DNA of 39,973 bases from Aeriscardovia sp. GTDB lineage: Bacteria; Actinomycetota; Actinomycetes; Actinomycetales; Bifidobacteriaceae. Under the pieces are notes generated by a model. The model saw only the letters and a list, made by a program, of their open reading frames with translations, was not told the origin of the DNA and made no database searches. Numbering within the stretch: the first letter of the stretch is position 1; each line of letters begins with the position of its first letter. Of this stretch, positions 1,015-36,334 are shown in pieces. The stretch lies in the NCBI GenBank assembly GCA_017538895.1, contig JAFYHY010000009.1:1-39973 (forward strand), written 5' to 3'. Position numbers and translations under genes: made by a program.

Positions 1015-1735
1015 ATAATTTACCTTCGTTTGTACGATGCCACAATCAAGTAATTATCATAACAAATGACAATGATGGTCTATTATCTTTATAAGACAAT
1101 AAGACCAAAACACTATTCTACATACACACACAAATTGGAGAACGATGTCCCATTCATACTCGCACGCAGAAAAACTACACAACACCCCCCACACCACAGA
1201 ACACGACGACGGAACACGACTACAAAAACTCCTCGCCATGGCAGGATACGGATCACGACGCAAATGCGAACTCCTGATCCAACAAGGACGCGTCGAACTC
1301 GATGGAACAATCGTCACCGAACTCGGAACAAAAGTAAAACCACACCAAACCATCCGCGTCGACGGATCCACCATCAAAATCAACCACACTAAAACCATCG
1401 TCCTCGCCGTCAACAAACCCAAAAAAGTCCTCTCCGCCATGGACGACAAAAAAGGACGCTGGACACTCACCGACATCATCGGCAACCAATACACCCACAT
1501 CTTCCACATGGGCCGCCTCGACTACGACTCCGAAGGTCTCATCCTCATGACCAACGACGGAGAACTCGCCGAACGCATCATGCACCCACGCTACGAAATC
1601 CAAAAAACCTACGCCGTCACCCTCAAAGGACACCTCACCCCAGAAACACTCCACCGCATGACCACCCGAGGCGTCTGCCTCGACGACGGATGGCAAAAAT
1701 TCGATAAAACAACACTCCTCACCAGCACTCGCGAA
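210..1735. other. Base-polarised island, top strand A+C-rich
   Basis: The top strand is strongly depleted of G and T across most of aquaporin (minus strand) and the first three quarters of rluB (plus strand). Counted samples: 661-720 has 48 of 60 A or C; 1321-1380 has 45 of 60. Codons end in G/T in aquaporin and in A/C in rluB, so the polarity belongs to the DNA strand. The promoter-containing gap 1015-1120 is less polarised. The right edge near 1735, inside rluB, is sharp. Confidence 0.85.
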
Positions 1736-4029: not shown

Positions 4030-4055
4030 TTTTTATCGTATAAATATTTTGCTTG

Positions 4056-4061: not shown

Positions 4062-4107
4062 GAGTTAGTTAATTGATATAACGCTTTTGATATTTAGGGA
4101 GAGTACC

Positions 4108-5523: not shown

Positions 5524-5559
5524 AAGATTGTCCTAAAATTAGGAAAGAATAAATTAAGA

Positions 5560-5609
5560 GACTAAACTGATATTGTTACTTGTAACACAGTAATAATATC
5601 AGTTTAGTC
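5560..5609. terminator. Long hairpin after ugpA, possible terminator
   Basis: A 20-bp stem (arms 5560-5579 and 5590-5609, one G-T wobble) has a 10-base loop, and it contains a smaller GTTAC/GTAAC hairpin. No clear T run follows on the plus strand; the sequence left of the stem would give a T-rich tail on the minus strand. It separates ugpA from the regulator gene starting at 5632. Confidence 0.6.
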
Positions 5610-5631
5610 ATTCGATAAGACATGAGGGCAC

Positions 5632-8967: not shown

Positions 8968-9585
8968 TTAGTGCTGATGTTCTGTTTTCATCAGAATAAA
9001 ACCTTGTGAAAAGTAAATAAAACCAGCGATCCAGTATAGTCCTATTCCCCACCAGCAGCATGCTAATCCGAAAGCATGAATAGCATAGAATACCCAATGA
9101 TAATGAATAAAGATGTGGGAAGCAATGAGGATTGGTACGGCTACAAGGAGCGCGCATGTTCCTACCTTACCAATGAAATGTACTGGTAATGGTCCATACC
9201 CGTATTGTGCAAGGAGAAGTATTTCTAATCCCATGACAAAATCACGGCAACAGATAATGATCATGAGCCACCATGGAACAATATGCACAATAGCGAGTGC
9301 GATGGCTGAGCAGATGATGAGGAGTCTGTCTGCTATTGGGTCGAGCATTTGTCCGAGGACGGATACTTGGTTGAATTTGCGTGCGACGTATCCGTCGAGT
9401 CCGTCGGAGGCTGCTGAGAGTGCCATGACGATGAGTGATGTGATGAGTTGGTTGGTTGCGATGAGGTATCCGATGATTGGTATGGAGAGGATTCTGATGA
9501 AGCTGATGAGGTTTGGGACGGTCCAGATAATGCGACGTGCTGGTGGGCTAAAACGTGTATCATCGTGTGTTTTCTGAACTGTCAC
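8968..9585 (-). CDS. pgsA: CDP-alcohol phosphatidyltransferase (phosphatidylglycerophosphate synthase type)
   Basis: An integral membrane enzyme of 205 residues that transfers a phosphatidyl group from CDP-diacylglycerol to an alcohol, most likely glycerol 3-phosphate or phosphatidylglycerol. The complete CDP-alcohol signature D-x2-D-G-x2-A-R-x8-G-x3-D-x3-D runs from Asp61 to Asp86 (starting SDGLDGYVARK). The N-terminal WTVPNLISFIRI is typical of PgsA-like proteins. Several hydrophobic helices follow. The family also contains CMP-forming cardiolipin synthases and phosphatidylinositol phosphate synthases, so the exact acceptor is open. It is downstream of rpe on the same strand with a 78-base T-rich gap. 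The 5' half lies in a G+T-rich top-strand island. Confidence 0.88.
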   Translation of the reverse strand: MTVQKTHDDTRFSPPARRIIWTVPNLISFIRILSIPIIGYLIATNQLITSLIVMALSAASDGLDGYVARKFNQVSVLGQMLDPIADRLLIICSAIALAIVHIVPWWLMIIICCRDFVMGLEILLLAQYGYGPLPVHFIGKVGTCALLVAVPILIASHIFIHYHWVFYAIHAFGLACCWWGIGLYWIAGFIYFSQGFILMKTEHQH

Positions 9586-12404: not shown

Positions 12405-13292
12405 TTAGAGAGTAAACCAAGAAAATAATAATAATGCCACAGGTACAGAAAGAAGAATACTGTCTATCCTATCAAGTATTCCTCCATGCCCTTTCAAAAG
12501 ATTACCTAAATCTTTAATGGAAAGATCACGCTTAATCATTGAAATACTAAGATCACCATACGTGCCTGCGAGTGCGATGCTGAGGCCGTAGAGGAAGGGT
12601 TGCCACCAGGAGGTGCTGAGGAGGGTGTGTGTGTAGAAGATGGTGTAGAAGATGAGTGTGCCGATGATAGCGAAGATGATGCTGCCGAGGAGTCCTTCGT
12701 AGGATTTTTTTGGTGAGATGTGTGGTGAGAGTTTGTGTTTGCCGAAGTTCATTCCGAAGAAGAGTCCTCCTGTGTCGCTGCATGCTGGGATAAAGAGGAG
12801 CATCATGAGTTGTGGTTGGTAGTGTGGGTGGAAGAGGGTGATGATGAGGAGGCTGCTGAGGAGGGAGACGTACAGTTCGATGAAGATGGTGGTGGTGAGA
12901 TGTTGGGTGATGCTGTTGGTGGTGAGGGGTGTTTTGGTGGTGTTTTTGATGGTGAAGGGTGTGATGATGAGGGTGATGAGGGTGGTGAGGGTGAAGCTGA
13001 GGAGGAGTCCTAGCCAGTGGTTGTCGACGAGGTAGGTTCCTGTGGGGATGAGGATACTGCTGAGGTAGAGGGGGAAGAATGGGAGATGGATGTGTTGTTG
13101 TGCATAGGCAAATCGTAGTTCGTGGATGCCGAGTACTGCGGAGAGTATGAGGAGTATGGTGAAGCAGTATGGTGGGAGGAACATGATGACTGCGATGAGG
13201 CCGCAGACGAGGAGTATTCCTGTCCAGATGGCTTGGGTCATGTTTCTTCCAGATTTTTTGGCGATGCCACGTGTGTGATTTGTGGTTTGCAT
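12405..13292 (-). CDS. cdsA: Phosphatidate cytidylyltransferase
   Basis: Makes CDP-diacylglycerol from phosphatidic acid and CTP, the precursor for the PgsA-type enzyme nearby. The 295-residue multi-span membrane protein ends with the complete CDS signature (SMIKRDLSIKD, then KGHGGILDRIDS) at about 251-278. PACSDTGGLFFG is the usual acidic active-site region. The middle of the protein is unusually rich in Thr and Asn, for example TTLITLIITPFTIKNTTKT. This coincides with a G+T-rich top strand (12901-12960 is 54 of 60 G or T), meaning an A+C-rich coding strand. It follows frr by 34 bases. Confidence 0.93.
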   Translation of the reverse strand: MQTTNHTRGIAKKSGRNMTQAIWTGILLVCGLIAVIMFLPPYCFTILLILSAVLGIHELRFAYAQQHIHLPFFPLYLSSILIPTGTYLVDNHWLGLLLSFTLTTLITLIITPFTIKNTTKTPLTTNSITQHLTTTIFIELYVSLLSSLLIITLFHPHYQPQLMMLLFIPACSDTGGLFFGMNFGKHKLSPHISPKKSYEGLLGSIIFAIIGTLIFYTIFYTHTLLSTSWWQPFLYGLSIALAGTYGDLSISMIKRDLSIKDLGNLLKGHGGILDRIDSILLSVPVALLLFSWFTL

Positions 13293-13905: not shown

Positions 13906-14631
13906 CTATTTATTAGACACTAAAGTGCCAAGTTTCTCTCCTAATAATACCTGTGTTACGCTCTGAGGATCTTCTATTCCAAAGACGCGAACAGGAAGAT
14001 CATTATCACGAGCAAGACTTAACGCGGACGCATCCATCACACCAAGATTCTTTACTAAGGCTTCTTGATATGACACATGATCATATTTCACTGCGTCTGC
14101 TACTTTGTGAGGATCAGCATTGTAGATACCGTCAATACCGTTCTTCCCCATCAAAACTTCATCGCATCGAATCTCAAGAGCACGTTGAATAGCAACGGTA
14201 TCAGTAGAGAAATAAGGAATACCAGCACCAGAACCAAAAATAACAACACGACCCTTTTCTAAGTGGTGTATTGCTTTTAATGGGATGTATGGTTCAGCAA
14301 CTTGAATCATGGTGATTGCGGTTTGCACTCGCGTTGTTTGGCCTTCTTGTTCTAAGAAGTCTGCCAAGGCTAGACAGTTCATGACGGTGCCGAGCATGCC
14401 CATGTAGTCTCCGCGACTGCGGTCGAGTCCAGCTTCTGCGAGTTCAGCTCCACGGAAAAAGTTACCACCGCCAACGACAACAGCAACTTGGATACCTTGG
14501 TCTACTGCTGCTTTGATTTCTTTTGCTATTCTACGGATGATCGTTGTATCAACGCCTACAGATCCACCGCCGAAAGCTTCTCCTGAGAGTTTCAGAAGAA
14601 CACGACGGGTGTGATTCATCTTAGCTTCCAT
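13906..14631 (-). CDS. pyrH: Uridylate kinase
   Basis: Phosphorylates UMP to UDP; a hexameric amino-acid-kinase-family enzyme. The 241-residue protein has [11 protein letters not shown] at 8-18, [11 protein letters not shown] at 46-56, the DYMGMLGT region, and [10 protein letters not shown] near 165. GAGGAC precedes the first ATG (14631) by three bases and GGAA precedes the ATG four codons further in, so MNHTRR is a possible alternative start. A strong terminator separates it from tsf, so pyrH-frr-cdsA probably depend on readthrough or on a promoter within 14632-14663. Confidence 0.95.
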
Positions 14632-17338: not shown

Positions 17339-17495
17339 ACCCTTTTTCAGGTTCACTATCCTCCATCACCTCTCATCAGTATCATCATTCCCCATTCGTC
17401 GCTAAACAATCACTGATTTCTTAAACATACCATTATTTTTCTACGACAACGTAACTTATTATTGTAATAATGAGTAAAAATATTCTGGAGGGAAA

Positions 17496-19307
17496 ATGAA
17501 ATCAGAGAGTAGTACTCCACCTACGTATACAACGTTGCCAGCAGAAAACCTTTTCCTCATGCTCAAAGAACGAGTTGAACGAACACCAGACGACCAGTTA
17601 ATCAAATTCCGCAACCAAGACGGTAAATGGGATAGTTATACCGCTACCCAATTCTTTGAATTGATCCAAAATATCGGCAAAGGATTATTAGCATACGGCA
17701 TTCAAAAGAATGACAAAATCGCTATCCTCAGCAATACCCGTTGGGAATGGACAGCATTAGATTTCGCTGCATTAAGTATCGGTGCAGTCATCGTCCCAAT
17801 CTATCAGACAGATTCATCCAACCAAGTAACTGAACTCTTACAAGCAGCAGAAGTCAAACTCCTCTTCGCTGAAGATGAACAACAAGCTGACAAAGTAGTC
17901 AACCGCTTATCTGAAATCCCATCCCTACAAGATGTGTATATCATCGACGATAAAGCTTTAGACATCTTCATCGAATTAGGCAAACACGTAACCGACGGCG
18001 CCTACATGGAACGCGTACAGTCAATACAACCTGATGATTTAGCCACCATCGTGTACACCTCCGGATCAACAGGAGCCCCTAAAGGCGTCGAAATTACCCA
18101 CTACAACTTCTGCTCTATTATTTACAATGGACGTGATTGCATGCCAGCAATCTCTTACGCGAAAAATGGATGCTACCTCTGCTTCCTTCCACTCGCACAC
18201 GTCTTCGCCCGCTACATGCAATACTTCACCATTGCCGGTGAAATGTCATTGGCAATCACCAAAAATATGAAGATGCTTTTGAACGATCTTAAAGAAGTAC
18301 GACCAACCCTCTTACTCGGCGTCCCACGTGTCTTCGAAAAGATCTTCAACGCAGCTTCTCAAAAAGCTGGCATGGGCATGGCCGGACGTATCTTCCACCG
18401 TTCTGTTGTCACAGCACGAGAATGGTCCAAAGCACAACAAAGCGGACACATCCCATTCTATTTATCCCTCAAGCGCTCGCTCTATAAGAAGCTTGTCTAT
18501 CAACAAATTATTGATGTTCTTGGTGGTCGTGTCAATTCCATCGTGTCTGGTGGCGCACCAATCGATTCTGAATTAGCTGATTTCTTTAACGGTATCGGTC
18601 TTCCACTCCTTGAAGGATATGGAATGACTGAATCCTGCGCTCCTGCTGCTGTGAACCCGTCTTTCGATTACAAGATTGGTAGCGTTGGTAAACCATTAGG
18701 TGGTGTTACCTTCGCTATTGCCGACGATGACGAATTACTGATTAAGGGACCAAACGTTTGCAAAGGCTACCATAATAATCCAGAATTAACTGCTGAAGTG
18801 ATTACTGATGGATGGTTACATACCGGTGATCTCGGACGAATTGATGAGGATGGGTATATTTATATTACTGGACGTAAGAAAGATCTTCTGATTACTGCTG
18901 GTGGTAAAAATGTCTCTCCTGCCCCATTAGAGTCTTCTATTATGACATGCCCTATCGTTGACCAATGCTTAGTCATTGGTGATCGTAAACCATTTATTTC
19001 CGCATTAATTACTCTTGATCTTGAAGAAGTGAATAAATGGTTAGCGATGCATAATGAGGATACTGTTAATTCACTTGCAGAAGCTGCTCAGAATCCACTT
19101 CTCTATGATGAAGTTGATAAAGCAGTCAAGCGTGCTAATTCTTTTGTTTCTCGTGCAGAATCAATTCGTAAGTTTGTTATTTTGGATAGCAGGTTTACTG
19201 AGGAAAATGGGATGTTAACACCATCGTTAAAGACGAAGCGTGCTGTTATTACTGAGCATTTTAAATCATTAATTAATGATTCTATTTACTCAACAGTTAA
19301 TAAGTAA
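17496..19307 (+). CDS. Long-chain fatty-acid-CoA ligase (AMP-forming)
   Basis: An acyl-adenylate-forming enzyme of 603 residues that activates fatty acids to acyl-CoA. The P-loop-like motif TIVYTSGSTGAPKG lies at 184-197, followed by EGYGMTES, HTGDLGRIDEDG and the ITGRKKDLLITAGGKN hinge and catalytic-Lys region near 450-470. The architecture matches FadD/FAA-type long-chain ligases. GGAGGG precedes the ATG by four bases. It stands alone, is convergent with clpP2, and is followed by a very long terminator hairpin. Codons are C/A-leaning in the first half and mixed after about 18480. The substrate chain length cannot be read from sequence. Confidence 0.9.
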   Translation: MKSESSTPPTYTTLPAENLFLMLKERVERTPDDQLIKFRNQDGKWDSYTATQFFELIQNIGKGLLAYGIQKNDKIAILSNTRWEWTALDFAALSIGAVIVPIYQTDSSNQVTELLQAAEVKLLFAEDEQQADKVVNRLSEIPSLQDVYIIDDKALDIFIELGKHVTDGAYMERVQSIQPDDLATIVYTSGSTGAPKGVEITHYNFCSIIYNGRDCMPAISYAKNGCYLCFLPLAHVFARYMQYFTIAGEMSLAITKNMKMLLNDLKEVRPTLLLGVPRVFEKIFNAASQKAGMGMAGRIFHRSVVTAREWSKAQQSGHIPFYLSLKRSLYKKLVYQQIIDVLGGRVNSIVSGGAPIDSELADFFNGIGLPLLEGYGMTESCAPAAVNPSFDYKIGSVGKPLGGVTFAIADDDELLIKGPNVCKGYHNNPELTAEVITDGWLHTGDLGRIDEDGYIYITGRKKDLLITAGGKNVSPAPLESSIMTCPIVDQCLVIGDRKPFISALITLDLEEVNKWLAMHNEDTVNSLAEAAQNPLLYDEVDKAVKRANSFVSRAESIRKFVILDSRFTEENGMLTPSLKTKRAVITEHFKSLINDSIYSTVNK

Positions 19308-22191: not shown

Positions 22192-23463
22192 CTACTTTCC
22201 TATCATAACGCGTTTCAACGACTCAGTCACCAAACTACGCTGCCACTCTCGTACACCTTTATTAGAGAGATATTCATCAACATTTAATTCTGGTTGATCA
22301 AGCCAGAAATATTCGCGAAGAATTTTTGGCTGCAAAATTAAATCTGATGGTATATTATTCTGCTCTGCGATTTGGTTAATTGCTTGACGTCCAGCAAGAA
22401 GTTTCCGATATCTCTCTGGTTGATGTGTACTCCAATACTTCAAAGAATGTGGGACAGAAGACCCTTTTTTATATGGTTTTGCTGACACCGTTGGCAGATG
22501 TGATTCTGGTTCTGCCAAAGCGGATTTAATCGCATCTTTCCATACTTGCGGTTTAATCATACGTTGCAATGGTGCATACCGTTCAAACATTTTGTCTTGA
22601 ACAGGATCATTATGCATACGAACACGTTCAAACAATTCAGGAATATTAGCAAACTGTCGTGAATTATGTGGCTTTAACTGTGCTGCTTTAATAATCGTTG
22701 AATCCTGCAAAACCAAACTTGGTGACAAATTCAAATCTGCAGCAATCTGATCACGCGTCATCCATAAGCGTCGAACAATAGCGAGTGCTCTGCGGTCTGG
22801 TCCGAGTGTGGTGATGTGGGAGACGTGTCTCCATGGTTCTTTTTGTGGTGGTGTGGGTTGGAGTCCTTGGGTGAGTATGTGGGTGAATTCTTGGGTGATC
22901 CATTGGGTTTTGTGTTGTTGTGTGAGGAGTTTTTCCATTTTGTTTTTGAGTGGGATGAGGAGTTCGACGTCGAGGGCGGCGTAGTTGCGCCATGAGGCTG
23001 GGAGTGGTCGGTAGGACCAGTCGACGGTGGTGTATTCTTTGGCGAGTTCGATGCCGAGGAGGTTGTGGGTGCAGGTGGAGAGGCTGACGTGTTGGAGGTT
23101 GAGGAATCGTGCGGCGAATTCGGTGTCGAAGAGTGCGGGTGGTTTGATGTTGAGTGTGGTGAAGCTGGGGAGGTCTTGGCTGGCGTCGTGGAGGATCCAG
23201 GTGGTGTTGGGGATGTCGGTGGTGAGGTGTGAGAGGTCGATGTTGTTGTTGAGGAGTGCTGGGATGTCGAGGAGGTAGATGTTGGTGTTGGTGCGTTTGA
23301 GTTGTATGAGGTAGTTGTTGTGGGTGTATCGGTATCCACTGGCGCGTTCTGCGTCTGCTGCGATGGGGCCTTGTGCGTGTTTGAGTTCGTTGAGTGCGGT
23401 GTAGAAAGCTTCAGTGGTGTTGATAACTGATGGGATTCCGTTGTAGGGGTGTTCTAAGAGCAT
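22192..23463 (-). CDS. rnd: Ribonuclease D-like 3'-5' exonuclease with HRDC domain
   Basis: A 423-residue DEDD-family exonuclease, probably acting on the 3' ends of stable RNA. Exo motif I is DAE at 37-39, motif II HDASQDL at 92-98, and motif III YAALD at 161-165. An HRDC-like helical domain follows at about 220-300, and a C-terminal region after 330 is typical of actinobacterial homologues. The first half is encoded by codons ending almost only in A/C and is rich in Thr and Asn. Near 22780 codon use abruptly becomes ordinary. The start is at 23463. Confidence 0.9.
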   Translation of the reverse strand: MLLEHPYNGIPSVINTTEAFYTALNELKHAQGPIAADAERASGYRYTHNNYLIQLKRTNTNIYLLDIPALLNNNIDLSHLTTDIPNTTWILHDASQDLPSFTTLNIKPPALFDTEFAARFLNLQHVSLSTCTHNLLGIELAKEYTTVDWSYRPLPASWRNYAALDVELLIPLKNKMEKLLTQQHKTQWITQEFTHILTQGLQPTPPQKEPWRHVSHITTLGPDRRALAIVRRLWMTRDQIAADLNLSPSLVLQDSTIIKAAQLKPHNSRQFANIPELFERVRMHNDPVQDKMFERYAPLQRMIKPQVWKDAIKSALAEPESHLPTVSAKPYKKGSSVPHSLKYWSTHQPERYRKLLAGRQAINQIAEQNNIPSDLILQPKILREYFWLDQPELNVDEYLSNKGVREWQRSLVTESLKRVMIGK

Positions 23464-23986: not shown

Positions 23987-25657
23987 TTAAATAAATTGTT
24001 GTGATACTGGGATATTGCGATCTTTGCAGAGTGCGCAGGCAGAGATTTTTGGTCCTTGAGGAAGCTGACGTCGTTTCCATTCTGCTGCACTGATCATATG
24101 GATGAGACGGTTTTTATCGGTTTCGGATAATTCTGGGAGGTGAATATCCGCTGCCTTTTTGCCTTGTTCAATGTATTGGTAGAGGAAGGAATCAAGGACT
24201 GGGTATGGTGGAAGATCGTCTTCATCTTTCTGATTTTCGTGGAGTTCAGCACTCGCTGGTTTGGTGAGGGTTGATTCTGGGATAGGGTGTGTGATGCTGC
24301 TGGTGGTGAGGTTGTTGCGCCAGCGTGCGAGTTCGTAGACACGGGTTTTGTAAACGTCGCTAATAGGCGCGTATCCGCCGACTGAGTCACCATACATGGT
24401 GAAGTAGCCAACAGCAAGTTCCGACTTATTTGTGGTATCTAATGCGACAAGGTGATGCTTGTTTGCGTATGCCATGAGGATAAGTCCACGGACACGTGAT
24501 TGTAGGTTATCGGCAGCGAGCCCGTGTACGTGTAGTTGGTTGTTGATACTGGTGACCATGTTGTGGATTGGTTCGACTGAGAAATGGCATCCGAGATTGT
24601 GTGCGAGTGTGGTTGCGTCGGTGAGTGAGTCTTTGGAGGAGATATGGCTTGGCATAGCGATACCGTATACGTTGTTGGCTCCGAGAGCATCAACTGCCAT
24701 GGTGGCGACAAGGGCGGAGTCGATACCTCCTGAGAGGCCAAGAACGACTTGTGTCATATGGTTTTTTGCCATGTAGTCTTTTAAGCCGAGAACGCATGCT
24801 TGGTAGATTTGTTCGGTGTTTGATGCTAATGGTGTGCTGCTGGTGGCGTGTGACTGATGGCCGGTGAGTGTCCAGTAGCTGAGGTCTTCAGTGAATTGTG
24901 GTTGTTGGAGGAGAAGTGTGCCGTTGGGATCGATGATGAAGCTACCGCCATCAAAGACAAGGTTGTCTTGGGCGCCTACTTGGTTGAGGTAGATGCTTGG
25001 TGCGTTAACTTCACGCGCGCGATCATGCAGAAGGTGGTGACGGACGGTCATTTTTCCTTCAGTATAGGGGCTACCGTTGAGTGAAACGAGAACGTCAATG
25101 TTTTCTTTTGCTAATTGTGATACGGTTCCTCCTTCACGCCAGAGGTCTTCGCAAATTGCTAATCCGATACGATACCCATTCACTGTAATGGTGGTGATAT
25201 GGTCACCAGGAGCGAAAAGACGTAGCTCGTCAAATACCCCATAGGTAGGAAGATAATGTTTCTGATAAATCGTTTGGATAGAACCATGTGAGATGACGTA
25301 CGCGCTGTTATGGTTTTCGGTATACCAGATTTCTTCATCATGATCTGGTGTTGGTTCGACTTCTAAGCAACCAACGATAACAGTGAGATCTCCTAATCCC
25401 TCATCTTGTAGTTGTTGTGCTAAGTGTTGTGGTGCGGTGCTCACTTGCTGGCGGAAATCATTCTGGAAGACGAGGTCATCGATGGGATATCCAGTGATTG
25501 CCATTTCTGGGAAAACAATAATGTCTGCATGATGGTCTGCTGCACGGTGAGCATACGTGAGTATGGTGGATATATTTGCGGTCATATTACCGACAATGGT
25601 ATTTATTTGCGCCATTGCAAATGTTAAAGATTTATTCGTTAAAGACTTGTTCATCAT
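23987..25657 (-). CDS. nadE: Glutamine-dependent NAD+ synthetase
   Basis: Final step of NAD synthesis, amidating nicotinic acid adenine dinucleotide with ammonia from glutamine. The 556-residue protein has an N-terminal nitrilase-type glutaminase with the triad Glu51 (FPEMA), Lys133 (YQKHYLP) and Cys169 (AICEDLW). The C-terminal synthetase has the PP-loop SGGIDS at 309-314 and TTNKSELAVGYFTMYGDS. Both domains are complete, so the enzyme should not depend on free ammonia. The start at 25657 has only a weak ribosome-binding site; the second codon is also ATG. A 101-base gap, with the palindrome TTGATATATCAA at 25696-25707, separates it from rarA. Confidence 0.95.
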   Translation of the reverse strand: MMNKSLTNKSLTFAMAQINTIVGNMTANISTILTYAHRAADHHADIIVFPEMAITGYPIDDLVFQNDFRQQVSTAPQHLAQQLQDEGLGDLTVIVGCLEVEPTPDHDEEIWYTENHNSAYVISHGSIQTIYQKHYLPTYGVFDELRLFAPGDHITTITVNGYRIGLAICEDLWREGGTVSQLAKENIDVLVSLNGSPYTEGKMTVRHHLLHDRAREVNAPSIYLNQVGAQDNLVFDGGSFIIDPNGTLLLQQPQFTEDLSYWTLTGHQSHATSSTPLASNTEQIYQACVLGLKDYMAKNHMTQVVLGLSGGIDSALVATMAVDALGANNVYGIAMPSHISSKDSLTDATTLAHNLGCHFSVEPIHNMVTSINNQLHVHGLAADNLQSRVRGLILMAYANKHHLVALDTTNKSELAVGYFTMYGDSVGGYAPISDVYKTRVYELARWRNNLTTSSITHPIPESTLTKPASAELHENQKDEDDLPPYPVLDSFLYQYIEQGKKAADIHLPELSETDKNRLIHMISAAEWKRRQLPQGPKISACALCKDRNIPVSQQFI

Positions 25658-25758: not shown

Positions 25759-27099
25759 TTATTGATTCTTACTAGTAGGATGCAGAATAGACCGTAATGC
25801 TGGTAATGTTGCGTGAATCCCTTGTTCGAATCCTCGTGTGGTGGGATGATAATATTCCGGTGTTCCCATACAGGACGGTAAATACTGTTGTGTGAGAATG
25901 CCCCGTGGATCATCATGAGGATTCTTATACTCTGAACGCTGCTCCTCCCCTGTATTCGTGAAATCGAAAGCATGGTTACGGAACGCGGATGGTATGGGCG
26001 CTGTCTCATACTCGGGATGTTGATCCATTGCCTGATACACGGCCTGTAATGCCTCATACGTAGATCGTGATTTCGGTGAGGTTGCTAAAAAGATCGTTGC
26101 CTCCGCAAGAATAATTTCTGCTTCTGGCATACCAACTGTCATTACTCCCGTTACTGCTGCAGTAGCGACAGGTAATGCTTGCGGATTCGCTAACCCAATA
26201 TCTTCTGCCGCGGAAATCACGAGCCGGCGTGCAATATACTCTGGTGGAGCTCCTAAACGTAATAATCGCGCTACATAGTAGATCGCTGCATCAGGATCAG
26301 ACCCACGAATGGATTTAATCATCGCAGACACCACATCATAAAACTCATCCTCAGAATACTCATGCTCTACCGTCACCTGATCTGTTAACACGCGTACCAT
26401 ATCACTGGTAATCACTGGCTTCTCCCCTTCCGATACTCCAGCGAGTGCTTGTGTGGTGAGGCTTTCAAGGAGAATGAGGGTTTGGCGTGCGTCTCCGTGG
26501 GTGAGGGTGATGAGGTCGTTTTCTGCGGTATTGGTGAGGGTGATGGTGTTGTTGTATCCGTGGGGGTCGGTGAGAGCACGGTGGATGATGTGGTGGAGGT
26601 CGGTGGTGGTGAAGCGTGTGAGGGTGATGATGAGTGATCGTGAGAGTAATGCTGGGATGAGGCTGAGGCGTGGGTTGTCGGTGGTGGAGGCGATGAGGAT
26701 GATGTCATGGTTTTCTACTGCTGGGAGGAGGACGTCTTGTTGTACTTTGGAGAAGTGGTAGATTTCGTCGATGAAGAGGAGTGTTTCTTCTCCTTGGTAC
26801 GCGAGGCGTGTGTGAGCAGCATGGAGCGCGTCTTTGATGTCTTTGGTGGTAGCAGAAACAGCATTGAGGGAAACGAAAATACGGTGTGAGCTGGTGGCTA
26901 TTGCTTCTGCGAGGGTGGTTTTACCGGTTCCTGGTGGACCGTAGAAGATGAGTGAGCTGGGAACTGTGGTGAGTGGGCCATTTTTTTGGGTGGGGTGTGC
27001 GATGGTGGTGAGTGGTGATCCTGGGGTGAGGAGATTATCTCGGCCGATAATCTCCTCAATGGTGTGTGGTTTGATCCGCAGGAAGAGGGGTGCTGTCAT
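25759..27099 (-). CDS. rarA: Replication-associated recombination protein A (MgsA/RarA AAA+ ATPase)
   Basis: AAA+ clamp-loader-like ATPase acting at stalled replication forks. The 446-residue protein has Walker A GPPGTGKT at 54-61 and Walker B LLFIDEIYHF at 107-116 (commonly DEIHRF), with sensor 1 ASTTDNP and the later IARRLVISAAEDIGLANPQA core characteristic of the family. The ATG overlaps the helicase stop as ATGA, so it is the last gene of hisS-aspS-helicase-rarA. Residues about 140-200 are rich in Thr/Asn/His and correspond to the strongest part of a G+T-rich top-strand island; the catalytic motifs are preserved. Confidence 0.94.
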   Translation of the reverse strand: MTAPLFLRIKPHTIEEIIGRDNLLTPGSPLTTIAHPTQKNGPLTTVPSSLIFYGPPGTGKTTLAEAIATSSHRIFVSLNAVSATTKDIKDALHAAHTRLAYQGEETLLFIDEIYHFSKVQQDVLLPAVENHDIILIASTTDNPRLSLIPALLSRSLIITLTRFTTTDLHHIIHRALTDPHGYNNTITLTNTAENDLITLTHGDARQTLILLESLTTQALAGVSEGEKPVITSDMVRVLTDQVTVEHEYSEDEFYDVVSAMIKSIRGSDPDAAIYYVARLLRLGAPPEYIARRLVISAAEDIGLANPQALPVATAAVTGVMTVGMPEAEIILAEATIFLATSPKSRSTYEALQAVYQAMDQHPEYETAPIPSAFRNHAFDFTNTGEEQRSEYKNPHDDPRGILTQQYLPSCMGTPEYYHPTTRGFEQGIHATLPALRSILHPTSKNQ

Positions 27100-27190
27100 G
27101 AGCGTGTGGTTTCTGTTTCTGGGAGGACAGGGAGATGGTCAAGCTGGTCGACTGTGTAGGTGGTGAAATGTGGTGTGGTGAGTGACCAAT
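26430..27190. other. Base-polarised island, top strand G+T-rich
   Basis: This covers the 5' two thirds of rarA and the last 100 bases of the helicase gene. Counted sample: 26521-26580 has 46 of 60 G or T. The left edge near 26430 is inside rarA; left of it codons are mixed. Confidence 0.75.
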
Positions 27191-29699
27191 CGTCGAGTGT
27201 GACAGTGACGTCGATTGCCCAATCATGATCCCCATCACTATCGTCCAGGATTTGACGTGCGTACACGGTGTTATCAACGATGCGGGTGATGAAGAAGCGG
27301 GAGGATCGTGCTTCTTGATCGGTATAAATTTCCTCATGTTCCTCATAAATATCGTCCAGGAGATCATCCCACTGGTGACGATTCATCCCATATGGTTCAT
27401 CCACATGCGCTAGATCTTCTGTTTTTTCTAAAGCGATGAGTTCAACACGATGGAATAACTCGTTCCTTAGAAGAACAAGAAGTCCACGAATATTCTGTGC
27501 TTGTGATTGTAAGGGGATACTGATCTCTTTCCCATGCGCTTCACTATCTTCTTCTGTTTGATCACTATAAATATGATTCCATTCATCAATGAGACTGGAA
27601 TCAATATTCTCCAGCATTAACGCTAACCAGTGAACGATATCCATCAGCTCATCGTTATAATCCTCACGTGGAATGGTGCGTGTGAGAACACGATATGCGT
27701 CAGACAGGTAATGTAGCAGCATTCCTTCTGAACGGTCTAAACGATAGCGAGAAATATACTCATTAAAGTTCGATGAGGTTTCTAACATGTCACGAACAAT
27801 TGATTTTGGTGATAGTTCATAATCACGTGCCCATGGAATTTCCTGACAGTACGCTGCATACCGGTCTTCCAGGAAATCTTTTAACGGTTGCGGGTACGTA
27901 ATTCGCTGTAAGCGATCCATCCGCTCCTGATAATCCAGATCCAGATCTCTCATCTCATCTAACGCAGCTGCACGAGCAACATTCTGCTGCGCTCGCAATA
28001 TAGACCACGGGTTTTCCAATGTAGCTTCCACCAAAGATAAAACATTCCATGTGTACTCTGGCGACTCATCATCTAACGATTCCACGGTCTCTAACAAAAA
28101 TGGTGATAATGGTTCATCTAACGCAAAGTTCTCTGGCATTTCAAAAGCCGTCGTATACTCATCTTCCCCATCATCCGTCTGATAATGATCAATCACATGC
28201 GCACGTTCTAACGTATCAAAAATCTCATTCGCACGCTGACGTAAACGATCCTTCTGCTTCTCCGATTGACGTGACAAATCAATCAAACGGAATAATCGAC
28301 CTTTCGCATCCCCACCCTGAGACACTTCAGACAAAACAATCGAATGCGTAACAGCGAAATGCGGTAACAAAGTTTCAGGCGCAGAATGAATCAACTTATC
28401 AAAGGTCTGTTGATCCCAACTCACATACCCTTCTTTTTGTTTTTTCTTCACTGGCTTTTTCGTACCCTTAGCTTTCGCCTGATTCAACGCAATCTCATAA
28501 TCAGGAGCTTCCACCAAACAAATACCCGTCTGATCAAACCCCATACGCCCAGCACGACCAGCAATCTGATGAAACTCACGCGCATGCAACTTCCGTTGCT
28601 TCACCCCATCAAACTTCGTTAACGACGTAAAAAGAACCGTATGAATAGGAACATTAATCCCCACACCCAACGTATCCGTCCCACAAATAATCGGCAACAA
28701 ACCTTCCTGCGCTAACTGCTCAATCAAACGACGATATTTCGGAAGCATCCCCGCATGATGAATACCCACACCATTACTTAACAACTTCCGTAACGTTTTA
28801 CCAAACGCAGTACTAAACGTAAAACCAGTTAACTTCTTCTTAATCGCCTCACGCTGCTCACGAGTAGTAAACCCACCATTCGCTAAACTCTCCGCCGTTT
28901 TCACCGCAGCTTCCTGCGAAAAATGAACCACATAAACCGGATACTGATTACTCTTAATCAACCACTCCAACGTATGTTGACACGTCATATCACTCACATA
29001 GTGATACTCCAACGACACCGGACGCTCAACATTATTCACCAACGACGTCACACGCTCAGTACACTGATCCAACGTCGCCTCAATACCAGACGTATCACCC
29101 AACGTCGCACTCATCAACAAAAACTGTGCAGACGGCAAACTCAACAACGGAACCTGCCACGCCCACCCACGCTCACGATCACCATAATAATGAAACTCAT
29201 CAATCACAATACACGCATCATCATCAACATCCCCACGCAACGCCTTATTCGCTAAAATCTCTTCCGTACAACAAATAATCGGCGCATCACTATTAATACG
29301 CGTATCACCAGTAATCATCCCCACATTCTGCGGACCAAAAGCAGCTGTCAAATCAAAAAACTTCTCATTCACCAACGCCTTAATCGGCGCCGTATAATAC
29401 GCCGTACGACCACGACTCAACGCAATAAACAAAAAAGCACTCGCGACCATTGATTTACCAGATCCTGTCGGGGTAGCAAGGATGACATGGTTATCGAGAA
29501 GGAGGTCGAGGATGGCTTCCGTTTGGTGTGGCCAGAGGGTGATGCCATGCCGTTCGCAAGCGTGTGCGAAACGATCGTAAATGTCATCATCGGAGACGGG
29601 TGTTTCTGATTGGTAAATAGAGTCAAGGGCTTGAGATAAGGCAGAGGCCAAGGAAACAGTGTCCTTGGCCTCGGTATCAACCTCAGAATTAATATTCAT
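27096..29699 (-). CDS. DEAD/DEAH-box superfamily 2 helicase with C-terminal DUF3516-type region
   Basis: An 867-residue Ski2/HelY-like helicase. Motif I PTGSGKS is at 77-83, motif II DEFH at 167-170, motif III MSATL at 196-200, motif V GVGINVP at 345-351, and motif VI QIAGRAGRMG at 378-387. The long C-terminal half is helical and charged, as in actinobacterial DUF3516 helicases; RNA or DNA as substrate is not settled by sequence. It follows aspS by 15 bases and overlaps rarA. The coding strand is G+T-rich from about codon 85 to 540, so codons there end in G/T (for example ACG TTG GAG TGG TTG ATT AAG). The first 80 codons show the opposite A/C pattern. Confidence 0.9.
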   Translation of the reverse strand: MNINSEVDTEAKDTVSLASALSQALDSIYQSETPVSDDDIYDRFAHACERHGITLWPHQTEAILDLLLDNHVILATPTGSGKSMVASAFLFIALSRGRTAYYTAPIKALVNEKFFDLTAAFGPQNVGMITGDTRINSDAPIICCTEEILANKALRGDVDDDACIVIDEFHYYGDRERGWAWQVPLLSLPSAQFLLMSATLGDTSGIEATLDQCTERVTSLVNNVERPVSLEYHYVSDMTCQHTLEWLIKSNQYPVYVVHFSQEAAVKTAESLANGGFTTREQREAIKKKLTGFTFSTAFGKTLRKLLSNGVGIHHAGMLPKYRRLIEQLAQEGLLPIICGTDTLGVGINVPIHTVLFTSLTKFDGVKQRKLHAREFHQIAGRAGRMGFDQTGICLVEAPDYEIALNQAKAKGTKKPVKKKQKEGYVSWDQQTFDKLIHSAPETLLPHFAVTHSIVLSEVSQGGDAKGRLFRLIDLSRQSEKQKDRLRQRANEIFDTLERAHVIDHYQTDDGEDEYTTAFEMPENFALDEPLSPFLLETVESLDDESPEYTWNVLSLVEATLENPWSILRAQQNVARAAALDEMRDLDLDYQERMDRLQRITYPQPLKDFLEDRYAAYCQEIPWARDYELSPKSIVRDMLETSSNFNEYISRYRLDRSEGMLLHYLSDAYRVLTRTIPREDYNDELMDIVHWLALMLENIDSSLIDEWNHIYSDQTEEDSEAHGKEISIPLQSQAQNIRGLLVLLRNELFHRVELIALEKTEDLAHVDEPYGMNRHQWDDLLDDIYEEHEEIYTDQEARSSRFFITRIVDNTVYARQILDDSDGDHDWAIDVTVTLDDWSLTTPHFTTYTVDQLDHLPVLPETETTRS
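28080..29440. other. Base-polarised island, top strand A+C-rich
   Basis: This lies inside the helicase gene on the minus strand, so codons end in G/T. Counted samples: 29041-29100 has 41 of 60 A or C, 28921-28980 has 38 of 60. The right edge at about 29440-29460 is immediately followed by the opposite polarity. Confidence 0.75.
29455..29660. other. Base-polarised island, top strand G+T-rich, abutting opposite polarity
   Basis: The first 80 codons of the helicase gene show a G+T-rich top strand, directly next to the A+C-rich island on the left. The switch occurs near the codons for the Walker A motif. Confidence 0.65.
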
Positions 29700-29714: not shown

Positions 29715-31517
29715 TCATTCTTCGTCATCATCTGGCTGATAATCAACGCCAGTTTCTTTACGCTGCAAATCCGTAATTGGTGCTGGAGCGAGCGTTAATG
29801 GGTCTTTTCCACCACCGGACTTCGGGAAAGCGATGACTTCGCGAATAGAATCGGTTGCGGTTAAGAGTTGAGCACAACGATCCCATCCAAAAGCTAAACC
29901 AGCGTGAGGTGGTGCACCATACTTGAATGCTTCAAGCAAGAAGCCAAACTTTTCGTTTGCTTCTTCTTGGGTGATACCAAGAACGTTGAAGACGCGCTTT
30001 TGAATATCGTCACGGTGGATACGGACGGAACCACCACCAATTTCGTTACCGTTGCACACAATATCGTAGGAATCACTCATCGCATGTTCTGGATCAGTGT
30101 CAAAGGTGTCTAACCATTCTTCGCTTGGCATGGTGAATGGGTGATGTTCAGAGGTCCATTGTGAATGACCAACAGCAACATCATCATCATCTGGATCATT
30201 CGCTTGCTTGAACAAAGGAAAATCAACAACCCATGTGAAAGCAAACTCATGTGGGTCAAGTAATCCTTGACGTTTAGCGATTTCAACGCGAACAGCGCCG
30301 AGGAGTTCTTGAGAGGAACGCTTCTTGCCAGCAGCGAAGAAGACAGCGTCACCATCTTCTGCATGAACAGCGTCCATGATGCCTGCGCGTTCTTCTTCAG
30401 AAATGTTCTTGGCAACTGGTCCACGTAATTCACCGTCTTTAAAGGTGATGTAGGCAAGTCCCTTTGCACCACGTTGACGTGCCCACTCTTGCCAGGCGTC
30501 GAATTGGCGACGTGGTAAGGAAGCACCGCCCTTATAGACAACAGCACCAACGTATTGTTGTTGGAAGACGCGGAATGGTGTGTTAGCGAAGAAGTCAGTT
30601 AAATCAACAAGCTTGTTGTCGAAACGAAGATCTGGCTTATCAGAACCATAGTAGTTCATGGCGTCAGTCCAGCTAATACGGTTGATTGGCAAGGTGACCT
30701 CATAGCCGGCTGACTTCCAGACAGCTTGGATGACCTGTTCGGCAACCTTCATGATGTCTTCTTGACCAACGTACGCCATTTCCATATCAAACTGAGTGAA
30801 TTCAGGCTGACGGTCAGCACGGAAGTCCTCATCACGGTAGCAGCGTGCAAGCTGATAGTAACGTTCAACGCCACCGACCATTAACAGCTGCTTTAACAAC
30901 TGTGGAGACTGTGGAAGCGCATACCAGGATCCTGGAACCAAACGTGCTGGAACAAGGAAATCGCGAGCGCCTTCTGGGGTGGATTTGATGAGGGTTGGGG
31001 TTTCTACTTCGGTGAATCCGAGGTTGTCGAGGACAGCGCGTGCTGCTTTGGACATATTGGATCGTGTGAGTAGGTTGGCGTGCATGGATGGGCGACGTAA
31101 GTCGAGGTAACGATACTTGAGTCGTAAGTCTTCGTTTGGTAGGTCGAGTTCGCCTTTGTTTTCCAGTTCTGTGGAGACTTGGAATGGGAGGGTTGCGGAG
31201 TTGGACAGGACAGTGACTGTGTCAGCAACGATTTCGATGGTACCTGTCAAGATGTCTGCGTTTTCTTCGCCTTCAGGACGTTTGCGGACGACGCCTGTGA
31301 CTTGAAGTACGTCTTCACTGTGGAGTGGTCGTGCGACGTTTTCGTCGTAGATGACGACTTGGATTAAACCTGAAGCGTCGCGAATATCGACGAAGGCGAC
31401 GCCACCGTGGTTGCGGAGTCTGTCGATCCATCCCGCGATTGTGACGGTTTGGTCTACAAGCGACTCATTCACTTCGCTGGCTGAATGAGACCTATATTTT
31501 GTACTGCTCATCACCAT
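29715..31517 (-). CDS. aspS: Aspartyl-tRNA synthetase
   Basis: A class II synthetase of 600 residues, bacterial type. An OB-fold anticodon-binding domain occupies about 20-110 ([20 protein letters not shown]). The catalytic core follows, with [20 protein letters not shown] in motif 2 near 220-240, a GAD insertion domain in the middle, and motif 3 [12 protein letters not shown] near 545-556. It starts in a TAATG overlap with the hisS stop; ATG 31511 two codons later is an alternative. It is the second gene in hisS-aspS-helicase-rarA. The anticodon-binding part lies in a G+T-rich top-strand island and the rest does not. Confidence 0.97.
31000..31480. other. Base-polarised island, top strand G+T-rich
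   Basis: This covers the 5' quarter of aspS. Counted sample: 31141-31200 has 42 of 60 G or T. A shorter G+T-rich stretch recurs at about 31640-31800 in the 3' end of hisS. Confidence 0.65.
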
Positions 31518-32917: not shown

Positions 32918-32925
32918 ATTTCCTT

Positions 32926-32953
32926 ATAATAGAGGACGTTATGTAACCGTCAA
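32926..32953 (-). promoter_or_regulatory. hisS promoter close to the start codon
   Basis: Minus-strand TTGACG (32948-32953) and TATTAT (32926-32931) are 16 bases apart. The -10 ends only 8 bases before the hisS ATG, which would place the transcript start within a few bases of the ATG. An AAGGAA sits in those 8 bases and would be largely outside such a transcript. Confidence 0.55.
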
Positions 32954-32954
32954 C

Positions 32955-32973
32955 GCGAATTACAAAAATTCGC
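32955..32973. promoter_or_regulatory. Inverted repeat next to the hisS -35 element
   Basis: GCGAATT and AATTCGC flank a 5-base spacer, one base beyond the hisS -35 in the divergent hisS/DUF349 gap. The position suits an operator; no regulator is known. Confidence 0.35.
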
Positions 32974-33030
32974 AATATTCTCTACACGTAGATACCATAA
33001 CTATTCACCACACAAAGAGGAGTCACCCAC

Positions 33031-34344
33031 ATGGGCATAACACCAAACATCATGGCACAAACACATCAAAACAACACCTCACTCACCACCTACAGTGACA
33101 GTGACCTCATACAAGCCAAACAATACGGATTCATCGACAACAACGGCACTATCTACCTCAAAAACAGTGACGGAACCACCCAACCACTCGGCTCCATCAC
33201 CGACATGAAAGACAAAGACACCATCCTCAACCTCTACGCACGACGCTACCTCGACCTCAAACAACGCGCACTCCTCCTCAAACAACACATCCAAACAGCC
33301 CACACCAAACTACGCACACTCGCCACCTCTATCGCCACCCTCCAAAAAGACATCACCACCACCAAATACATCGGCGACAACACCAGCCTCCAAAACCAAA
33401 TCACCGAACTATCCCAACTCCTCACCCAAAAAGAAACCGAACTCAAAGAACAACACCGCCAAGCCCTCAAAACCTCCCTCACAGCACGCACCACCATCGT
33501 CACCAAAGCAGAAGCACTCGCTCAAGGACTTGATGAGTCAACAAATTGGAAGAATACAGCGGAAGAGTTTAAAGCACTATTCGCAGAATGGCAGGGATTA
33601 CAGAAGACGCAGGTGCGTCTTGATGAAGCGACAGAGAAAGAATTATGGGGTCGTTTCTCTGCTGCTCGATCCTCCTTTAACGAGGCTCGTCATGCATGGA
33701 TTGAGCAACGTGAACAGGATCATGAGAAAGTCCGTCGCGCAAAGAAAGATCTGATTGAGCAAGCTCGCTTATTAGAGGATTCTCGTGATTTTGCTGCAAC
33801 CTCAAAAGAGTTTTCTCGTTTAATGGAGGACTGGAAGCACGCGGGTCGTATTAATAAGCAGGAAGATGATGCTTTGTGGGCTGAGTTCAGAAAGTCTGCT
33901 GATGTCTTCTTCACTACCCGTGAGGAGGAAAGAACTCGCGTTGCCTTAGAAGAACAAGCAAATGTTGCACGAAAGGAAGCATTATTAGAGCAGATTACTG
34001 CACTGGTAAGCACCATTTCTGCCACGACGATTGATCATGTCAAGAAGGAAATTAATCCTCTTCTTGACGCCTGGGATGAAGTTGGTCATGTTCCACAAGA
34101 ACAGTTTATTGAGTTAGAAAAGAAACTCTCTACCGCTACTGCTCCATTGACCTCTTTCGAAGAAAAGAAATGGTCAGAAATTAATACATCAACAGATCAC
34201 CGTTACGTGTCCTTCAAAGAGCAAATCATGAACCGTCTTCACAACATTGATATGCAGCTAGCAACTGAAACTGATCCACAAACGCGTCAGAAATTGCAGG
34301 ATGAGAAAGTAGCTAAGAAACAGTGGTTAGAAACCATTTCCTGA
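33031..34344 (+). CDS. DUF349-domain protein
   Basis: A 437-residue, mostly helical cytoplasmic protein. At least two DUF349-like repeats are visible: WKNTAEEFKALFAEWQ with LWGRFSAARSSFNEAR (about 170-220), and DFAATSKEFSRLMEDWKHAG with LWAEFRKSADVFF (about 250-300). Before them lies a coiled-coil-like stretch rich in Gln, Thr, Leu and Lys (about 65-165). The molecular function of the family is not established. GAGGAG precedes the ATG by about 10 bases. It is divergent from hisS and ends at a perfect terminator. The first 165 codons end almost exclusively in A/C; then, within about 10 codons near 33525, usage becomes mixed. Confidence 0.85.
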   Translation: MGITPNIMAQTHQNNTSLTTYSDSDLIQAKQYGFIDNNGTIYLKNSDGTTQPLGSITDMKDKDTILNLYARRYLDLKQRALLLKQHIQTAHTKLRTLATSIATLQKDITTTKYIGDNTSLQNQITELSQLLTQKETELKEQHRQALKTSLTARTTIVTKAEALAQGLDESTNWKNTAEEFKALFAEWQGLQKTQVRLDEATEKELWGRFSAARSSFNEARHAWIEQREQDHEKVRRAKKDLIEQARLLEDSRDFAATSKEFSRLMEDWKHAGRINKQEDDALWAEFRKSADVFFTTREEERTRVALEEQANVARKEALLEQITALVSTISATTIDHVKKEINPLLDAWDEVGHVPQEQFIELEKKLSTATAPLTSFEEKKWSEINTSTDHRYVSFKEQIMNRLHNIDMQLATETDPQTRQKLQDEKVAKKQWLETIS

Positions 34345-34417: not shown

Positions 34418-36334
34418 CACTTCTGGAAGAGACGTAATTTTTTGTTTGATCTGCAGTAATTGTGGGAGCTCGGTCTCATGGATTGGCAGCGTGATAGTAA
34501 TCATATGCTGGTCAGGAGTATCAGTTAAATGAATATCTGATTGGACAGTGAGCGCACTAATGAGACGTCGTATATCTGTCAGTAAGTACGTTGGGCAGCT
34601 TGTTGCTTCAACACGTACGGTTGCTGATATCTGATCTTCTGTTACTTCAGGTAACAGTAAGTCATCTGCTGATAATGAGAAATGATCATCGTGTGATTCT
34701 TGCAGTACTTCAGGTACTACTACTGTTTTATCTGTCTGATGTGCGGTAGGAGCATACTGTTGTTGATCATCAGCAACCGGATTATAGTCGGAGTAATGAT
34801 GACTAAACCAATGTTTAATCGCACCACGTGCTTTCGATGATTTCACGAATGATAACCATTCAATCGATGGTCCCAAGCTGGTTGGTGACGTTAAGATATT
34901 GACGGTATCCCCATCATGAAGAATGGTATCTAATGGTACGAGATGCCCGTTCACTTTCGCACCTAACGCATTGTTCCCGATCATGGTATGGATAGCATAC
35001 GCGAAATCAATTGGCGTTGAATTGGTGCCAAGTGTAATGACTTTACCTTTTGGTGTGAAGACGTAAATAGCGTTTGCTTGTAAATCATCTTTTAAAACAT
35101 TGATGAATTCCGCGGAACTTGGTGTCTCATTTGACCATTTTACTAAGTGTTTCACCCATTTTAGGTTATTTTCTATCGTACTGTCAGGTTGTACTAATGC
35201 AGTGGAAGGAGATGCTGCTTCCCCATTAATGGTTGCTTTATACTTCCAGTGTGCTGCAATACCGTATTCAGCGAAATGATGCATATCCCAGGTACGGATT
35301 TGGATTTCAATCATATGACCATTCGCATCTATTACTGTGGTGTGAATAGATTGGTACATATTGATCTTTGGCATTGCAATATAGTCTTTTATACGACCAG
35401 GAACAGGCGTCCATTGCGAGTGCACGATGCCGAGGACTGAGTAGCAGTCTTGTATGGTTGGCACGATGATGCGGATGCCGAGGAGGTCGTAGATGTCGTC
35501 GAAGTTGTGTTGTCGGTTGACGATTTTTTGGTAGATGCTGTAGTAGTTTTTTTGTCGTCCGGTGACGGTTGCGGTGATCTTTTTTTCGGAGAGTTTGAAT
35601 CGTATCTGTTTGACGAGTTGTTTGATGTATGAGTCTTTTTCTCCTGTTTTGCGTGCGACCATGACGACGAGTTTGTTGTAGATGTCTGGGTGAAGTTGTT
35701 TAAAGGAGAGTTCTTCGAGCTCGGTTTTCATAGCGTTGATGCCGAGTCTGTTTGCGAGTGGGACGTAGATGTCGAGGGTTTCTTTTGCCTTGTTGCGTGC
35801 GCTTTCTGGTTTGACGTATCGCCAGGTGCGGGCGTTGTGTGTTCTATCGGCGAGTTTGATGAGAAGGACGCGGATATCGTGGCTCATCGAGATGATCAGT
35901 TTGCGGATGGTTTCTGCTGGGGCGTCGTTTCCTGCTTGTATTTTGCTGATTTTTGTCATGCCGTCTACGAGTGCGGTGATTTCTGGTCCGAATTCGTAGT
36001 TGCATTGTTCGAGAGTGTAGTCGGTGTCTTCGACGGTGTCGTGGAGGAGGCCGGCTGCGACGACGTCTTCTGAGAGGCCAAGGTCGGCGAGGATTTGTGC
36101 GACGCCGAGGGGGTGGATGATGTAGGGTTCTCCTGATTTTCGGCGTTGGTTGCGGTGTTGGTATTGGGCACGATTGTAGGCTTGTTGGAGAAGTTGGAGG
36201 TTTGCTTGTGGGTAGTGTTGTTGCACAATGCGGGTGATTGCTTCTAGAGCATTGGAAGGGTTGCGTGTGATTTCGACACCTAGTAGCCGTGAGTTGCCTT
36301 CGTTGTGCGACTGATGCATCTCGATGTCATTCAT
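34394..36334 (-). CDS. rel: Bifunctional (p)ppGpp synthetase/hydrolase, RelA/SpoT (Rel) family, shortened C-terminus
   Basis: Makes and degrades the alarmone (p)ppGpp. With the start at 36334 (AGGAA nine bases ahead, two bases after the dut stop) it has 646 residues. The hydrolase has His74 in IIHPLG, HD at 98-99 and ED at 102-103, plus DRTHNARTW. The synthetase has GRQKNYYSIYQK, RIKDYIAMPK and YQSIHTTVI, and both look active. TGS follows (IYVFTPKGKVITLGT). After KARGAIKHWFSHHY only about 60 polar residues separate TGS from an ACT-like end (ISATVRVEATS...). The usual helical domain and Cys-rich zinc-finger domain (CCxPxPGD) are not found. The 5' half lies in a G+T-rich top-strand island. Confidence 0.93.
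   Translation of the reverse strand: MNDIEMHQSHNEGNSRLLGVEITRNPSNALEAITRIVQQHYPQANLQLLQQAYNRAQYQHRNQRRKSGEPYIIHPLGVAQILADLGLSEDVVAAGLLHDTVEDTDYTLEQCNYEFGPEITALVDGMTKISKIQAGNDAPAETIRKLIISMSHDIRVLLIKLADRTHNARTWRYVKPESARNKAKETLDIYVPLANRLGINAMKTELEELSFKQLHPDIYNKLVVMVARKTGEKDSYIKQLVKQIRFKLSEKKITATVTGRQKNYYSIYQKIVNRQHNFDDIYDLLGIRIIVPTIQDCYSVLGIVHSQWTPVPGRIKDYIAMPKINMYQSIHTTVIDANGHMIEIQIRTWDMHHFAEYGIAAHWKYKATINGEAASPSTALVQPDSTIENNLKWVKHLVKWSNETPSSAEFINVLKDDLQANAIYVFTPKGKVITLGTNSTPIDFAYAIHTMIGNNALGAKVNGHLVPLDTILHDGDTVNILTSPTSLGPSIEWLSFVKSSKARGAIKHWFSHHYSDYNPVADDQQQYAPTAHQTDKTVVVPEVLQESHDDHFSLSADDLLLPEVTEDQISATVRVEATSCPTYLLTDIRRLISALTVQSDIHLTDTPDQHMITITLPIHETELPQLLQIKQKITSLPEVKKTVIVL
35400..36330. other. 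Base-polarised island, top strand G+T-rich
   Basis: This covers the 5' half of rel (minus strand), ending at the dut boundary. Counted sample: 35701-35760 has 39 of 60 G or T; other stretches look stronger. The left edge near 35400 is inside the synthetase domain. Confidence 0.65.

Follow-up and report, generated by a model that had tools for sequence, protein, structure and literature searches.

The octamer GCGAGTGC opens a strand-asymmetric stretch of 1 to 2 kb at nearly all copies tested in the genome of an Aeriscardovia species. Most likely, this tract is the fossil trace of a recombination hotspot, in a bacterial group in which none is known. We consider it somewhat probable that GCGAGYGC (complement GCRCTCGC), a candidate strand-oriented Chi-like recombination site, seeds the tract as the long-term footprint of recombinational repair. 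The starting point was a window of 39,973 bp (positions 1 to 39,973 of contig JAFYHY010000009.1), which belongs to a 1.41-Mb (1411 kb), 163-contig Bifidobacteriaceae assembly; about 688 kb of this assembly was analysed, with genes called mechanically. One genome per species was used throughout, so that mutation and fixation are seen together, and the Chi-like reading is built on base composition, on the frequency and orientation of the word, and on the genes present.

The original prediction held that polarity flips sign inside a helicase gene of the window, where two tracts of opposite polarity would abut near the Walker A codons as if DNA were processed bidirectionally from one point. Segmentation of the helicase third codon positions placed an abrupt change point at codon 86 (29444/29445), followed by decay on the 3' side. 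Within codons 86 to 408, A or C occupies 5.9% of third positions (18 A, 1 C, 149 G, 155 T) and G or T 94%; none of the 1,362 untracted 77-codon windows in the genome sequence analysed lies at or below 6% A/C. The A/C share then rises to 22% in codons 409 to 519 and to 41% in codons 520 to 794. The sharp change within the gene thus stands, but the opposite A/C island proposed for codons 1 to 80 does not: third positions of codons 1 to 8 hold no A or C, and those of codons 9 to 85 hold 62%, a value that 10% of ordinary 77-codon windows reach and that is therefore in the normal range. As the 5' side of the edge is ordinary, the gene carries a single, one-sided, decaying tract rather than two abutting ones. 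Likewise, a single start point was retained and bidirectionality was not, the 5' side being neutral across 83 motif copies. Polarity had also been proposed to be independent of gene direction, which was borne out: it follows DNA position, and genes on both strands have the same sign on the motif strand.

Inspection of the edge for a motif or structure returned GCGAGTGC on the minus strand at 29437 to 29444 (codons 86 to 88), coincident with the change point, and no hairpin (DNA fold z = +1.1); the inverted repeats nearby lie at 29286 to 29315 and 29644 to 29672, with none at the edge itself. The link to Walker A proved incidental, for two congeners encode QG in place of SA at the same codons (VAQGF, versus VASAF here) and have neither motif nor polar island there; the site is lineage specific. 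An assembly join was rejected as the cause, since the 867-residue frame is open, the DEAD domain (residues 57 to 201) spans the point, and relatives align continuously across it.

Ten polar islands were called in the window with a three-state hidden Markov model (HMM). These are sawtooth shaped when plotted, and their G/T-rich strand always runs 5' to 3' from the sharp edge. When the edges were aligned, GCGAGTGC was found on the G/T strand at 8 of the 10; the ninth (30963) has the variant GCGAGCGC, and one (7298) has neither. That last island, an A/C island at 6846 to 7298, has a sharp right edge at about 7329 with no exact or one-mismatch motif there, and is possibly a decayed site. Two copies that face an opposing tract, at 24249 to 24256 and 14325 to 14332, lack a tract of their own or show only a slight one, as though overlapping tracts of opposite sign cancelled out (Table 1).

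TABLE 1 Helicase gene, motif copies, variants and associated tracts in the window
Feature	Position	Strand	Remarks
Helicase gene	27096..29699	minus	867 aa; DEAD + Helicase_C + DUF3516; carries the edge
GCGAGTGC (GCACTCGC on plus)	29437..29444	minus	Start of helicase tract
Helicase tract	28143..29444	minus	G/T-rich on minus (A/C-rich on plus); sharp at 29444, decays leftward
GCGAGTGC	1725..1732	minus	Tract 1-1735, A/C on plus
GCGAGTGC	9293..9300	plus	Tract to about 10750, G/T on plus
GCGAGTGC	12568..12575	plus	Tract to about 13620, G/T on plus
GCGAGTGC	14325..14332	minus	Tract weak or absent; meets opposing tract from 12568
GCGAGTGC	22781..22788	plus	Tract to about 25000, G/T on plus
GCGAGTGC	24249..24256	minus	Without own tract; inside opposing 22781 tract
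GCGAGTGC	26441..26448	plus	Tract to about 27200, G/T on plus
GCGAGTGC	33514..33521	minus	Tract 32263-33514, A/C on plus
GCGAGTGC	35416..35423	plus	Tract to about 36570, G/T on plus
Variant GCGAGCGC	30963..30970	plus	Weaker tract 30972-31937, G/T on plus
Variant GCGAGCGC	18473..18480	minus	Weak A/C (plus) stretch at about 17400-18450 on its 3' side
Variant GCGAGCGC	27989..27996	minus	Tract barely visible

To examine the genome without prior choice of a word, every octamer was scored by the G+T content of the 400 bp after it minus that of the 400 bp before it. Across 363 kb, GCGAGTGC ranked first of 28,005 octamers (z 12.9) for being GT-rich after and neutral before. It again ranked first, this time of 41,599, in 325 kb of held-out contigs that were fetched after the discovery and unused in it (z 16.3, n = 54; G+T of 0.625 after versus 0.508 before). 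Taking all sequence analysed together, downstream G+T exceeds upstream G+T at 77 of 83 copies. The word is also over-represented, with 119 copies in the genome versus 20 for the reversed word, and its Markov z of 3.8 is the highest among octamers with at least 20 copies. Our literature search met neither GCGAGTGC nor GCACTCGC as a word, and reports elsewhere are possible.

Two further observations concern other contigs. Three A/C islands on contig C36 (920 to 7025, 80758 to 81526, and 142924 to 144630) are A-rich and have no motif in the required orientation; these probably reflect protein composition rather than the tract process. Contig C5 (38.9 kb), which is strongly GC skewed, contains neither GCGAGTGC nor a tract; it looks like phage DNA, one open reading frame resembling, by eye only, a terminase large subunit.

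The anatomy of the tract was resolved by pooling copies. Across the motif, third-position G+T jumps from 0.487 (last 15 bp upstream) to 0.787 (first 15 bp downstream) and then falls through 0.76, 0.74, 0.71, 0.66, and 0.62 over successive 200-bp steps. At 0.8 to 1 kb the value is 0.66; the effect is halved by about 0.9 kb, and baseline is regained by about 2.2 kb. Across the 83 copies, the 3' side is strongly polar over 1 to 2 kb, whereas the 5' side is neutral save for a slight dip of opposite sign in the 100 bp next to the motif (0.483 ± 0.010 versus about 0.505 further upstream). What is observed for base composition, then, is an orientation-dependent, one-sided action with kilobase decay. 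Read on the motif strand, two-fold sites change from 0.32 to 0.70 in G/(G+A) and from 0.71 to 0.91 in T/(T+C), alike for genes on the same or the opposite strand. At four-fold sites, A is halved and C is nearly gone, and the purine fraction barely moves (0.463 versus 0.403; 0.579 versus 0.588). This near constancy indicates that the change consists essentially of transitions, A to G and C to T on the motif strand. First and second codon positions are shifted as well, and amino acid frequencies follow: relative usage of V, N, and T is 1.28, 0.72, and 0.80 when the gene lies on the G/T (motif) strand and 0.74, 1.25, and 1.29 when it lies on the opposite strand.

Among single-base variants outside existing tracts, each with few copies (n of 1 to 22), only GCGAGCGC is clearly active (0.084 ± 0.022, n = 6). 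The same variant is the top octamer when the scan is run on a congener (G001; n = 67, z 5.2), and its effect in a second congener (G002) is weakly positive and of the same sign (0.024 ± 0.008). The closest named match by helicase is an Aeriscardovia metagenome-assembled genome (MAG), at 59% identity. Over-representation of GCGAGTGC relative to the reversed word was found in 2 of 121 family genomes, namely this one (119:20) and G020 (75:18), which is from the same family and a different genus. When octamer scans were pooled over loci of Bifidobacterium, Gardnerella, and Coriobacteriia, no comparable motif emerged; these scans say little, as the loci are either few or orthologous copies.

Leading and lagging strands were assigned from dnaA (C36:111694), coding-strand bias, and synteny with relatives assembled as single contigs. 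By this assignment, GCGAGTGC faces the origin, such that GCACTCGC is on the leading strand at 55 of 57 sites outside the terminus (2 lagging), a test that depends in part on gene orientation because some contigs were oriented by coding bias alone. GCACTCGC is the sole octamer of 9,502 with both at least 90% polarity and a Markov z of at least 2. By synteny, the strand switch is flanked by the helicase (contig C53) and thrS (end of contig C72). Sites are denser and orientations mixed in C53 and in C72:69-100 kb, the regions flanking this inferred terminus, and tracts near it are stronger (excess of 0.143 versus 0.094, p = 1.6e-4). Adjoining the inferred terminus, C72:68-101 kb holds a dense two-orientation cluster of 16 sites in 32 kb.

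Leading-strand polarity and over-representation are the computational hallmarks by which Chi sites are sought (PMC8022716), and both are displayed here by a short, specific word. A sharp one-sided effect that fades over kilobases, seen here in base composition, is likewise used or expected in such work. The genome also encodes a candidate reader. Two adjacent genes on contig C28 specify proteins of 1,395 and 1,258 amino acids, each with a UvrD-like domain and a C-terminal PDDEXK nuclease domain, whose best matches among solved structures are the AdnA and AdnB chains of Mycobacterium smegmatis. The adnA gene itself (C28:8629-12816) contains two GCGAGTGC sites with tracts, both antisense to it, at C28:9599 and 12047. 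According to papers published in 2016 and 2026, it is not known whether or how a Chi-like site regulates AdnAB (PMC4824097, PMC13309787). Given the replication polarity, 5'-GCACTCGC-3' is the likelier form for an enzyme to recognize on the 3'-ended strand. In this model, AdnAB would enter at a broken fork, travel toward the origin, read 5'-GCACTCGC-3' on the leading-sense strand, and there stop degrading the 3' end. A RecA-coated 3' tail would be left over the next 1 to 2 kb toward the origin, where the tract lies; this is the 5' side of GCACTCGC, where 3' tail and heteroduplex would form, and the presumptive tail strand is the A/C-rich one.

How the sign of the tract arises is a separate matter, and NucS-biased conversion is a possible but rather doubtful answer. 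Such conversion presupposes NucS without MutS, which links the idea to the biology of actinobacteria that lack MutS; genes for NucS and DinB are present here, and a MutS match was found in 0 of 23 genomes searched. NucS acts on G-T, G-G, and T-T mismatches and spares A-C (PMC8228993); in M. smegmatis, the difference exceeds 500-fold in vivo (PMC11551767), and loss of NucS raises homeologous recombination (PMC11551767, PMC8228993). In heteroduplex with a diverged donor, a G or T on the tail would form G-T mismatches that NucS destroys, whereas an A or C would form A-C mismatches that escape, and the tail could thereby drift to A/C and its partner to G/T. However, as NucS also cuts G-G and T-T, transversions should shift at equilibrium, and no such shift is seen in the nearly constant four-fold purine fraction. 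These barely moving fractions favor a transition-only process over the NucS step, which would still fit only if the system is far from equilibrium. The faint signal at E. coli Chi (see below) also lies on the 3' side, where the D-loop is extended, and not on the tail side. Against the Chi-like reading as a whole, the exact word is over-represented in 2 of 121 family genomes, a patchier distribution than that of E. coli Chi. Written on the 3'-ended strand, the known Chi sequences are also rich in G, and GCACTCGC is not.

Several alternatives were weighed against recombinational repair with NucS-biased conversion. The tract could instead be a mutational footprint at a Chi-like site, left by an error-prone polymerase (e.g., DinB) that re-synthesizes one strand from or opposite the Chi 3' end, with uncorrected G-T mispairs (dG opposite T, dT opposite G) placing G and T in the new strand. 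We regard this as somewhat unlikely, although much is consistent with it: re-synthesis of the resected strand gives the same sign as the NucS step; the G/T-strand signature is one of transitions at nearly constant purine fraction; a DinB gene is present; and amino acid usage is pushed too (1.28 for V and 0.72 for N with the gene on the G/T strand, 0.74 and 1.25 with it on the opposite strand). In E. coli, Pol IV is placed in RecB-dependent double-strand-break repair (PMC7470938), and the faint, marginal G/T excess 3' of Chi (0.0093 ± 0.0033) is on the extension side. Yet NucS is present and would correct G-T, and such a polymerase would have to out-mutate ordinary replication several-fold to hold a 4- to 5-fold odds shift. 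Another improbable reading dispenses with Chi and makes the motif a fixed point at which lagging-strand or nick-primed synthesis begins (a primase, nickase, or relaxase-like site), with the tract as the first 1 to 2 kb of the strand. The lagging-strand sense of GCGAGTGC, a tract running 5' to 3' from it at about Okazaki-fragment length, and the activity of both orientations near the terminus, where forks arrive from both sides, agree with this. On the other hand, about one site per 12 kb is too sparse for ordinary priming, all regions are copied by Okazaki fragments so that locality would need a special polymerase, and why the word is selected and over-represented is left without account.

Selection rather than mutation could act if an A/C-only tail beside the site, being unable to fold, loads RecA or SSB well; we judge this unlikely. 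If GCACTCGC is the Chi word, the 3' tail would indeed be the A/C strand, and E. coli RecA has composition-linked preferences (PMC3763553). The strands that E. coli RecA prefers are of the TGG type, however, which are the opposite letters; moreover, both two-fold classes are affected equally, and amino acid changes of 20 to 30% would be costly if purely adaptive. Single-strand deamination (C to T, A to G) of an exposed recombination tail or R-loop is very improbable. Its chemistry is compatible with both transitions toward G/T on one strand, but a RecA-loaded tail would then need to be G/T enriched, and either Chi orientation predicts the opposite sign on the tail side; tail deamination was rejected for this wrong sign, and the one strand that would match is that displaced in the D-loop, given the orientation judged less likely. 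An origin in transcription or R-loops was likewise rejected, since genes on either strand behave alike and give the same sign on the motif strand. That chance, codon usage, or protein composition produced the pattern has a negligible probability: some C36 islands (920 to 7025 and 142924 to 144630) are A-rich without a motif in the required orientation, but the first rank among 41,599 octamers in held-out data excludes this reading, both gene strands behave alike, and the edge is sharp to the base pair.

A site-seeded process in a bacterium sets codon choice over 1 to 2 kb and shifts amino acid frequencies by 20 to 30%, and such tracts would mislead analyses of codon usage, selection, and horizontal transfer. 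AdnAB is the main break-resecting enzyme of mycobacteria, and our analysis offers an explicit candidate Chi sequence, orientation, and tract length. Tentatively, and with more doubt than confidence, we propose GCRCTCGC as the first Chi for an enzyme of the AdnAB type, and suggest that in MutS-less bacteria every Chi may leave a strand-resolved, base-pair-sharp fossil of heteroduplex repair at synonymous sites. If this is true, genome sequences of Actinobacteria could directly reveal Chi sequences, resection lengths, and the direction of breaks.

Other polar chromosome motifs, such as the FtsK-orienting sequence (KOPS), are likewise replication oriented and over-represented. KOPS polarity, however, is expected to be strongest at the terminus, whereas orientation here is mixed there; because polarity is lost in C53 and C72:69-100 kb, flanking the inferred terminus, and is not sharpest at the terminus or dif, KOPS was rejected as an identity for the word. 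To our knowledge, a one-sided composition tract is not a feature of KOPS. Eukaryotic biased gene conversion and hotspot mutation are similarly local, recombination linked, and directional, with a gradient from the initiation site; the process here differs in its strand-asymmetric transitions, its fixed octamer seed, and its occurrence in a bacterium with no MutS match. As in mycobacterial-type AdnAB, the enzyme is encoded by two adjacent genes with UvrD-like and C-terminal PDDEXK domains, with the difference that the candidate site is read here from composition alone. The known Chi hotspots (E. coli GCTGGTGG with RecBCD, the Chi of Bacillus subtilis AddAB, and Lactococcus lactis GCGCGTG) are also short, oriented, over-represented words with leading-strand polarity, and their action is likewise one-sided, with kilobase-scale decay and a sharp stop at the site, features that are known here from base composition. 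The present word departs from them in its sequence, in its host enzyme (AdnAB, the candidate reader, which is not known to have a Chi), and in its mixed orientation near the terminus. When E. coli Chi was used as a positive control, GCTGGTGG gave a faint effect (t = 2.8, versus a maximum of 2.06 in 93 permuted words), and at MG1655 loci its G/T excess lies on the 3' side over 500 to 1000 bp (t of about 2.7 to 3.2, n of about 140). Relative to this faint asymmetry, the footprint described here is about 12 times stronger.
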